Origin: Halobacteriales archaeon QS_8_65_32
GTDB lineage: Archaea > Halobacteriota > Halobacteria > Halobacteriales > Halococcaceae
DNA length: 44,850 bases
Direction of reading: 5' to 3'
Assembly: GCA_003022925.1 (NCBI GenBank)
Contig: PXRY01000085.1
Location: 1-44,850, forward strand
Shown: positions 12,019-44,775 of the stretch, piece after piece
How the letters are laid out: each line of letters starts with the position of its first letter
Numbering within the stretch: position 1 is the stretch's first letter
Notes under the pieces: model-generated
Database searches by the model: none
The model's input: the letters and a program-made list of their open reading frames with translations, nothing else
What the model was told of the DNA's origin: nothing
Made by a program: the position numbers and the translations under genes

Positions 12019-12429
12019 GTGTTTAGTGTAGCAGCCTCTCGGGAAAGAGCTGCCGCGATCGTTTAGGAAGCCCCCGGGCGTTCACGGGCGCTTCGCGCCC
12101 GTTAGCTCGGGAGAGCGAAGCTCTCTCGAGATGTGGCGGGAACGCGAAGCGTTCCTGCTGTAAGCTGGAAATCCGCGATTCCCCGCTATGACGAAAGGCG
12201 TGGAGCACCTTTCGAACTACGGTGCTTACTTCGCCCGCTGTCGCCGAGCGCGAGGTCGGCCCCGCCAACCTCGGAATCCGTGGTCGTTCGAGAGAGCTCC
12301 GCTCTCTCGTGATGAACGAAAGACGCCGGAGGCGTCTTTCGAACCACAGCGAAGCCGCCACGCGCCCGGCCCCTTCCAGTCCCACCCGCGACGGTCCGTG
12401 GCATCGTTCATCGCTTCACTAGACATCGC
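12019..12429. repeat. Dispersed composite element with six mini-hairpins
   Basis: A non-coding element of about 411 bp filling most of the 559-bp gap. The left end GTGTTTAGTGTAGCAG and right end CTTCACTAGACATCGC are imperfect inverted repeats. Inside are GGAAGCCCCCGGGCG and hairpins at 12084-12102 (ACGGGCGC/TTC), 12111-12125 (GAGAGC/GAA), 12139-12155 (GGAACGC/GAA), 12290-12308 (GAGAGAGC/TCC) and 12318-12340 (GAAAGACGCC/GGA), plus a weaker one near 12197-12217. The last two strong hairpins are enclosed by outer arms GTGGTCGTTC (12280) and GAACCAC (12341-12347). The core GTGGGACTGGAAGGGGC lies near the right end in complement. Confidence 0.8.
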
Positions 12430-16288: not shown

Positions 16289-16684
16289 GTGTTTGCTTTA
16301 GCAACTTTCAGCAAGAACACCGTCGAGATCGTTTTGAAAGCCCCCGGCACGCTCGGCTTCTGCTCGCGGGCCGGGAGCCCGCTCGCACGGTCCGTGGGAC
16401 TCTCCCAGTCCCGCGTGGTTCGGGAGAACTCCGTTCTCCCGTCATCACGAGAGAGCTTCGCTCTCTCGAACGACTACCCGCGACTCGTTGCGCTCCTCGT
16501 CTCACTCGCGGTGCTCGTTCGACTGTGGTGCTTACTTCGTCAGGTTCTACGAAGGACTCGCTCCGCTCACCCTTCGAGCTCTCGTTCGCTCGCGGTGCTC
16601 GCTCACGAGAACGCCGAGCGGTCGGCCCCTTTCAGTCCCACCCGAACCGGTTCCCGCCGACCCTCATCGCTCAACTGAACACTG
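16289..16684. repeat. Dispersed composite element upstream of citrate synthase
   Basis: About 396 bp. The left end GTGTTTGCTTTAGCAAC and right end GCTCAACTGAACACTG are imperfect inverted repeats. GAAAGCCCCCGGCACGCTCGG follows the left end. The hairpin module at 16415-16475 reads GTGGTTC, hairpin GGGAGAAC/TCC (16422-16440), GTCATCAC, hairpin GAGAGAGC/TTC (16449-16467), GAACGACT. The core GTGGGACTGAAAGGGGC is in complement near 16623-16640. A stretch of about 110 bp before the right end is close to that of the copy at 37050-37442. The 574-bp gap holds no gene. Confidence 0.8.
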
Positions 16685-28585: not shown

Positions 28586-28866
28586 ACAGGGCGGTGGCTG
28601 CAAGCAGTTCCCCCGCGAGCGAGTGCCGAAGTTCTCGTGAACGAAGTGAACGAGAGCAGGGAGCAGTCGTTTGAAAGGCGCGGAGCGTCTTTCGTGATGA
28701 CAGAAGAGCTTTGCTCTTCTGAACCACTTTGCTGCGACCAAGGCACGAGCGAGCGGCTTTTTGATGCAGATTTTTGCTGAGCCCGTAGCGAGCGACCGAA
28801 CGGAGTGAGGGAGCGAGCGAGGACCTCAGCAAAAAGGTGCGCGTAAGACGCCAGCAAAAAGCTGCG
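28586..28866. repeat. Second repeat family with nested hairpin module, 3' of cmi4
   Basis: On the minus strand it begins at the cmi4 stop (GCAGCTTTTTGCTGG, GCGCACCTTTTTGCTG), continues with AAAAATCTGCATCAAAAAG and ends with GAACTGCTTGCAGCC, colinear with the copy at 27905-28041. Where that copy has only a 13-nt hairpin, this one carries extra DNA. The insert includes the module GTGGTTC, hairpin AGAAGAGC/AAA (28702-28720), GTCATCAC, hairpin of GAAAGACGC/TCC type (28673-28693), AAACGACT (complement of 28665-28672). The 516-bp gap upstream of tfs contains this and the tfs promoter, and no gene. Confidence 0.75.
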
Positions 28867-36908: not shown

Positions 36909-37049
36909 GAGTCATTCTCGGAGCGCCGCGACTTAACGGTCGGCTCGTCGGCCGCCGATCCGTCGATCCGCCGGTCGGCCGGTTCGCGTTCGATGCGATC
37001 TCGGTCGACCGTCCCGCCCTGGCCGCAACGAAACCAATACGGCCGGCGG

Positions 37050-37442
37050 CATATGTCGACGAGAGTCGACAGGAACCGCTTCGGGTAGGACTAGAAGGGG
37101 CTGACCGCTCGGCATTCTCGTGAGCGAGCACCGCGAGCGAACGAGAGCTCGAAGGGCGAGTAACGCGAGTCCTTCGTAGAACCCCGGCGACGCAAGCACC
37201 GCAGTCGAACGAGCGAAGCGAGTAAGACGAGGAGCGTGGTTCGAGAGAGCAAAGCTCTCTCGTCATTGCGGGAAATCGTCGATTTCCCGCTTGCAGCAAA
37301 AACGCGGAGCGTTTTTGCCACATCACAAAAGGTGCGAAGCACTTTTATGAACGACAGCGAGCCGCAGGAGCCGAGCGTGTCGGGGGCTTCCGAGCCGTTC
37401 ATAACGGATCGTTCTCGAACGGCTACTGAACTAAATGCTACC
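37050..37442. repeat. Dispersed composite element with four tandem mini-hairpins
   Basis: In the 583-bp gap between divergent genes, core-forward. It has GGGTAGGACTAGAAGGGGCTG (degenerate core), CCGGCGACGCAAGCACCGC, then the hairpin array at 37236-37355: GTGGTTC, hairpin GAGAGAGC/AAA (37243-37261), GTCATTGC, hairpin GGGAAATC/GTC (37270-37288), GCTTGCAGC, hairpin AAAAACGC/GGA (37298-37316), GCCACATCAC, hairpin with AAAAG..TGC/GAA (37327-37346), ATGAACGAC. GAGCCGAGCGTGTCGGGGGC and the end CTGAACTAAATGCTAC follow. The linkers match those at 44627. Confidence 0.8.
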
Positions 37443-37460
37443 TACCGGTCATCGGACGGG

Positions 37461-37468
37461 CTTAAGTA
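37461..37468 (+). promoter_or_regulatory. TATA box for the 37492 gene
   Basis: CTTAAGTA, centred 28 nt before ATG 37492, just outside the right end of the dispersed element. Confidence 0.5.
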
Positions 37469-37491
37469 GCTCTCGGTGAAGGGTAGAACGA

Positions 37492-42818: not shown

Positions 42819-42935
42819 GTGGTTCCAGAAAGCTTCGCTCTCTCGTCATCACGGGACGGCTTCGCCGTCTCGAACGACTTCAGCGGTTCGTTCGCGGGGA
42901 ACCGCTCGCCACCTCCGGTGGCTCGCGGATGCGCT
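42819..42935. repeat. Hairpin module of the dispersed element, isolated
   Basis: GTGGTTC (42819-42825), near-perfect hairpin AGAAAGC/TTC (42827-42843, one mismatch), GTCATCAC (42845-42852), hairpin GACGGC/TTC (within 42853-42871), GAACGACT (42872-42879). Further hairpins are AGCGGTTC...GGAACCGCT and CCACC-TCC-GGTGG to about 42918. The core and terminal repeats are absent. Confidence 0.75.
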
Positions 42936-44498: not shown

Positions 44499-44735
44499 TA
44501 GTGTCAACTTACGCGATTGGTCGTCGAACAACCGCCATCAGGGCGGAACTGAAAGGGGCCGACCGCTCGGCAGACCCCGGCGAAGCAAGTACTGGAGCGA
44601 CTGAACGGAGTAAGGGAGTGAAGCGCGTGGTTCGAGACGGCTTCGCCATCTCGTCGTTGCGGGACCGAAGGTCCCGCTTGCAGCAAAAACGCGGAGCGTT
44701 TTTGCCACATTCACGAGAACTCCGTTCTCGTCGCA
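44499..44735. repeat. Dispersed composite element, truncated at its hairpin array
   Basis: Begins AGTGTCAACTTACGCG, then GGCGGAACTGAAAGGGGCCG (degenerate core), CCGACCGCTCGGCAGACCCC and GAAGCAAGTACTGG. The array at 44627-44735 reads GTGGTTC, hairpin GAGACGGC/TTC (44634-44652, one mismatch), GTCGTTGC, hairpin GGGACC/GAA (44661-44675), GCTTGCAGC, hairpin AAAAACGC/GGA (44685-44703), GCCACATTCAC, hairpin GAGAAC/TCC (44715-44729). The left-end module is missing; a different sequence (CACTGTCTAGTCAAAG) starts at about 44733. The rest of the 338-bp gap holds nothing else. Confidence 0.8.
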
Positions 44736-44775
44736 CTGTCTAGTCAAAGTATGAGCAGTTCTTGGTTTCGGTGTA

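Follow-up and report, generated by a model that had tools for sequence, protein, structure and literature searches.

A probable family of very small mobile DNA elements with paired, differing hairpin stems in the class Halobacteria

A hairpin island in DNA of Halobacteriales archaeon QS_8_65_32 probably belongs to a group of tiny mobile DNA elements, non-autonomous and typical of the class Halobacteria, in which fold and linkers are conserved while paired stems vary; the probability of this reading was put at about 0.7. The core unit, TGGTT-hairpin-TCATCA-hairpin-AACGA, is approximately 54-66 bp long and occurs class-wide. The 120-bp copy in the window (the whole 44,850-nucleotide stretch that was analysed) is this core unit enlarged by another double-hairpin module, which interrupts the central linker. 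The first-pass annotation of the window had attributed the hairpins to selection or copying acting on structure; its interpretation did not include a mobile element whose ends are defined, whose targets share a consensus and for which empty sites exist.

Results

Anatomy and copies in the home genome

The long nested unit occupies positions 37236..37355 of the plus strand and reads GTGGTT-hairpin 1-TCATT-hairpin 2-TTGCA-hairpin 3-CACATCA-hairpin 4-AACGAC. Hairpin 1 (37242..37262, plus strand, CGAGAGAGC.aaa.GCTCTCTCG) is perfectly paired, as are hairpin 2 (37268..37290, plus strand, GCGGGAAATC.gtc.GATTTCCCGC) and hairpin 3 (37296..37318, plus strand, GCAAAAACGC.gga.GCGTTTTTGC), the first and second halves of the inner double-hairpin module; the 3' arm of hairpin 4 (37326..37349, plus strand, CAAAAGGTGC.gaa.GCACTTTTATG) is degenerate. 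The tandem mini-hairpins and joining linkers described by the first-pass annotation were therefore present, with three of the four perfect and the fourth damaged in its 3' arm, and the sister copies that it had placed near 16422, 28720 (minus strand), 42827 and 44634 were all found, together with one more at 12347-12283.

Four of the copies are short units of two hairpins: 12283..12347 (minus strand, stems GAAAGACGCC and GAGAGAGC), 16415..16474 (plus strand, stems GGGAGAAC and GAGAGAGC), 28666..28727 (minus strand, stems AGAAGAGC and GAAAGACGC, the second imperfect) and 42819..42878 (plus strand, both stems with mismatches). A further long unit at 44627..44738 (plus strand) carries hairpins GAGACGGC, then GCGGGACC and GCAAAAACGC, then ACGAGAAC, and has a degenerate right end. 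Stems of at least 9 bp numbered 12 in the window, versus 1-6 in five order-3 Markov simulations. The 37 kb island lies in an intergenic gap (36909..37491) between divergent genes, a GH3 glycosidase on the minus strand and an open reading frame without a Pfam match on the plus strand. Around the unit, positions 37057-37236 and 37356-37400 belong to a wider mosaic, built from dispersed repeats in which GAGCGAAGCGAG phrases are frequent, and pieces of this mosaic were found singly at other places in the genome.

Statistics for the home genome (3.28 Mb assembly, 127 contigs) were taken from fetched stretches and pattern searches. A 201-bp query found 73 similar places. A linker pattern blind to complementarity (GTGGTT, 17-29 free bases, TCATNNC) gave 122 matches, versus 2 for the reversed pattern used as control, and in almost every match the free bases formed a hairpin around a loop of three bases. 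Stem sequence and length varied among these matches (GGGAGAAC, GAGACGGC, GAGAGAGC, AAGAGAGC, AAAAGGCGC, GAGAGACGC, GAAAGACGCC and others), and in the fetched stretches at most one mismatch was present in 79 of 90 first hairpins and in 59 of 74 last hairpins. Some units sit within larger dispersed repeats, and part of the spread of the unit is therefore passive.

At three places in the home genome (L046, L033 and L051) a third double-hairpin module, ATCAGAACTC..GAGTTCTGAT-TTAC-TCACGAGAAC..GTTCTCGTGA, was seen within the long unit, with ATGTG on either side in L046 and L033. Hairpin units probably break assemblies, because several contigs start or stop in or beside them (G000:C87, C37 and C56; G023:C3 and C15; G037:C36).

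Taxonomic range

The two-hairpin pattern GTGGTTC-gap-GTCATCAC-gap-GAACGAC was scanned over 84,980 species genomes and matched at least 110 stretches, in dozens of haloarchaeal genera. Among the matches listed with names, 78 of 80 were haloarchaeal and the other two actinobacterial (L093 and L105), both of these being unpaired, consistent with chance. Among the matches listed, 111 of 122 distinct haloarchaeal units had at most one mismatch per stem. When 295 genomes of the phylum were drawn, the unit was carried by 37, all in the order of the window, and by none of the other 242.

Viral carriage was considered and rejected: the two-hairpin pattern had no match in viral contigs, and the 16 matches of a looser single-hairpin pattern were all unpaired chance matches. 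These served as a negative control, in which the linkers by themselves brought no complementarity.

Filled sites, empty sites and the target

Insertion was precise and without target duplication. In Natrinema hispanicum (L085) a unit lies inside an IS200-type tnpA (Pfam Y1_Tnp; L085:4547-5179) with the frame kept, the translation across the insert reading SAHPK-WFERRSLSSSRESEILERH-APSEIV. The insert is 54 bp, runs from TGGTT to AACGA and is placed between G and C at CCGAAG^CAC, with no target duplication. In Salinadaptatus (L103), with flanks 89-91% identical to those of L085, the same tnpA site is empty; L103 carries a unit just 3' of tnpA, in the loop of CCTCGGGG-TCAAG-CCCCGAGG, where L085 is empty. 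The palindrome after tnpA, CCTCGGGGTCAAG^CCCCGAGG, was intact and empty in most of 30 further copies from a search of the class (L208-L237). A PATE, that is, the ends of an IS605 element without its core, was rejected as an identity for the unit, since at tnpA the unit has inserted into an IS palindrome that also occurs whole in its absence.

The same palindrome, CCTCGGGGTCAAG/CCCCGAGG, holds units with differing stems in many genera (L069, L097, L112, L157 and others), either by repeated insertion or by a single insertion that later diversified. In haloarchaeal tnpA genes, double-hairpin inserts were seen at three in-gene positions and at one just after the gene, some of them in frame.

Two tnpA sites, S1 and S2, were filled in some copies and empty in others. 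The S1 insert has stems GCGGGATC and GCAAAGC and resembles the inner module (hairpins 2-3) of the window copy; one of its nine copies shows a paired arm change, from GCAAAGC/GCTTTGC to GCAAATC/GATTTGC, and its loops include GAA and the inverse, TTC. The S2 insert, TCGTC-CGAAAATC-TGATCA-CGAGAGAC-AACGA, adds an in-frame TGA. The tnpA carrying this TGA was otherwise well preserved in ten genomes.

Junctions follow a target consensus, G^CNNCG, in 72 of 102 distinct cases (71%), whereas 12-15% of the GC steps in the surrounding DNA or elsewhere in these loci do so; the 37 kb copy of the window is joined at GAGCG^CAGCG. When the flanks were rejoined, a perfect hairpin of at least 7 bp was formed in 17 of 140 cases; in 50 shuffles the count averaged 5.8 and never exceeded 12. 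At GCGGGAG^CttcGCTCCCGC, for example, the unit entered one base ahead of the triloop. The 37 kb locus itself is without the hairpin island in three congeners, whose flanking genes are 77-86% identical, and the gap in the home genome is approximately 490 bp longer than in these congeners, whose intergenic DNA is too diverged for exact borders to be drawn.

An element of the REP/REPIN type, mobilised by a domesticated IS200/IS605-family transposase (Y1, HUH), would have several of these properties, namely a pair of hairpins, short unpaired tags of constant sequence, insertion that leaves the target unduplicated and an association with IS200-type elements. REP, BIME and REPIN sequences are likewise intergenic palindromes in pairs, with short constant unpaired tags and high copy numbers (PMC3733652, PMC3116915). 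The unit differs from REP/REPIN in its constant parts (GTGGTT, TCATCA, AACGAC), without the GTAG/CGTC tetranucleotide described for the hairpin foot (PMC3733652), in having constant linkers with freely varying paired stems, and in its insertion between G and C. It also inserts into tnpA rather than flanking it. A search for Y1 transposases in the home genome and three congeners, all rich in copies, detected none, although in assemblies 78-90% complete such an absence is no proof. A Y1 partner in the home genus was set aside as improbable, and we consider a REP/REPIN origin unlikely. An autonomous form of the unit, carrying a gene between its hairpins, was also sought; none was found, and the candidates were separate neighbouring units.

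Pairing of the stems

Stem covariation was measured in 30 distinct units of equal length, against a null in which the letters of the 3' arms were dealt anew in 500 shuffles, which do not correct for relatedness among the units. Paired cells made up 96.1% (80.8% when shuffled), two-sided changes numbered 90 (31.8 when shuffled, sd 4.8, an approximately threefold excess) and the covariation score was 0.430 (0.166 when shuffled); none of the 500 shuffles reached any of these values. Structures slid along the units as a control were only 31-46% paired. The outcome in a second set of 15 units was the same, and the excess of compensatory stem changes anticipated from the window was in this way borne out. 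The outer helix GTGGTT/AACGAC could pair at five of six positions, but both sides are constant and hence uninformative for covariation.

The pairing signal looks DNA-like, not RNA-like, and resembles what palindromic DNA would show. Only 2 cells held a one-sided change to a standard pair, versus 90 two-sided changes, and G-U wobbles were nearly absent. If one strand were read as an RNA helix, wobbles of that strand should predominate; the mismatches in 147 home-genome hairpins were evenly split (GT/TG 22, AC/CA 21). The earlier proposal that structure is under constraint thus stood as far as pairing is concerned, and a preference for DNA over RNA was supported in part, by the rarity of G-U pairs and the even mismatches.

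These data also bear on a structured non-coding RNA or a transcript-end element (a terminator or mRNA stabiliser) dispersed in untranslated regions, for which the mostly intergenic position and the stable paired stems would speak. Besides the near absence of G-U pairs and of strand bias in the mismatches, no Rfam model matched, even at E up to 1, and a unit is inserted within a transposase reading frame. The units are moreover flanked by genes in all orientations: among the units scored with a purpose-written gene finder, whose gene calls are approximate, 40 were co-directional, 16 divergent, 13 convergent and 3 in-gene, with 39 at locus edges. An RNA element was on these grounds judged very improbable.

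Differing stems within a unit

The two stems of a unit avoid likeness. Identical stems were found in none of 145 units, versus 9.0 expected when stems were permuted within groups (11.9 when permuted over all), and the outer 6 nt were common to both stems in 3 of 145 units, versus 24.4 expected from permutation within groups. With each of the 98 distinct stem combinations counted once, none had identical stems versus 4.7 expected (P 0.0026), and the outer six were alike in 3 versus 16.5. Inside single groups the numbers are small and the avoidance is only suggestive. Alike stems would either misfold into one long hairpin or disappear by deletion between repeats; that as few as six shared bases are already avoided speaks for misfolding, without proving it.

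Triloops and template switching

Among linker-flanked hairpins with stems of at least 8 bp, GAA/TTC and GGA/TCC made up 312 of 455 loops, and AAA/TTT 38. The GNA-type loops noted in the window thus predominate, and only part of the bias is specific to the units, as GAA/GGA were also favoured in other hairpins of the same DNA (114 of 248). The suggestion that the GNA loop belongs to one strand held only in that the loop is GNA on one strand or the other, which strand not being fixed relative to the linkers (GAA and GGA 60, TTC and TCC 50 in the home genome). A GNA loop is equally likely on either strand, and recognition of the loop of one strand would not predict this.

Triloops change fast and can be inverted. 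At S1 the loop of hairpin 2 is GAA in L103 and TTC in L085, an inversion at one site. Three Haloarcula loci with the same flanks (L073, L090 and L129) have a second hairpin with loop tt, aa or tgc and a stem that is the same or shortened, and these differences look like natural loop inversion.

Mutation alone could be proposed as the source of such patterns: template switching during replication copies one arm onto the other, perfects palindromes and inverts loops, with no function or mobility. Loops that are mainly GAA/TTC and GGA/TCC, the S1 inversion and the rarity of one-sided relative to two-sided changes are as this process would have them. It leaves unexplained the linkers constant across the class, insertions that are clean and end at fixed points, the consensus at the target and the stem avoidance. 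At S2, moreover, an insertion shared by many genera, eight copies sampled blind to their stems were identical in all four arms (differences 0), with per-site differences of 0.51 and 0.64 in the two loops and of 0.22 at third codon positions upstream; arms without drift beside third codon positions that differ by 22% are not expected from such copying. Because the arms are frozen there, the stem sequence of S2 appears, beyond its pairing, to be either constrained or young.

As a complete explanation, template switching was accordingly considered unlikely. The template-switch remodelling raised in the first-pass annotation fits the loop inversions and perfect arms and is insufficient alone, given the identical S2 arms (n=8) and the avoidance of likeness between stems; it may act within the mobile element, as the process that repairs arms and flips loops. 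Selection for the folded form would be compatible with a process of copying, and the two are not fully separated by these data; the frozen arms of S2 argue against copying alone.

Discussion

None of the papers searched contained the unit sequences. Two adjacent hairpins likewise form the mobile unit in the double-hairpin elements of Allomyces mitochondrial DNA, which differ from the haloarchaeal unit in being mitochondrial.

Compared by description, the nearest elements are the small mobile repeats SMR-A of Haloquadratum walsbyi (HqIRS42, 43 and 55), small haloarchaeal repeats without a transposase, with inverted ends and no target duplication, which enter palindromes lying close to the ends of IS605-type elements or PATEs and whose mobilisation was called enigmatic (PMC3119063). 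Like SMR-A, the unit is without target duplication, as seen at filled and empty sites in tnpA and in the neighbouring palindrome. Some copies occur in the palindrome after an IS200-type tnpA, but most units found sit elsewhere. SMR-A measure approximately 110 bp, have prominent ITRs and are highly alike inside each type (PMC3119063), whereas the core unit is 54-66 bp, has imperfect ends of 5-6 nt and variable paired stems, and is class-wide, only the long form reaching 120 bp. Rickettsia palindromic elements (approximately 150 bp) are also palindromic and mobile and can lie in frame inside protein-coding genes, and the review consulted describes among them no double-hairpin unit with covarying stems (PMC10969869).

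Judged by its anatomy alone, the mobile unit would move as folded single-stranded DNA. A candidate enzyme would recognise the unpaired ends and the linker beside the hairpins, and not the sequence of the stems, so that stems would be free to drift while they remain paired and mutually different, each hairpin folding separately. Joining by this enzyme would take place at a G^C step, in many cases next to the triloop that caps a different mini-hairpin. The inverted loops and the perfectly paired arms would probably arise by template switching or by hairpin opening and repair. We advance tentatively, at somewhat below even odds, the broader proposal that the fold and not the sequence is the heritable identity of the element: an enzyme would read ends and linkers beside arbitrary stems and insert at the apexes of mini-hairpins, nesting hairpins in hairpins, with the stems staying complementary and unlike each other as triloops flip. 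The logic of such conservation as structure would be comparable to that of the attC sites of integrons.

With its ends, target rule and empty sites, the unit gives repeats that abound between haloarchaeal genes, and that had no explanation, a defined identity as a mobile element, and it offers a practical way into the mobilisation called enigmatic in Haloquadratum (PMC3119063). Should recognition depend on the folded form, the unit would be one of few mobile elements conserved as structure, and would point to a structure-specific archaeal enzyme.
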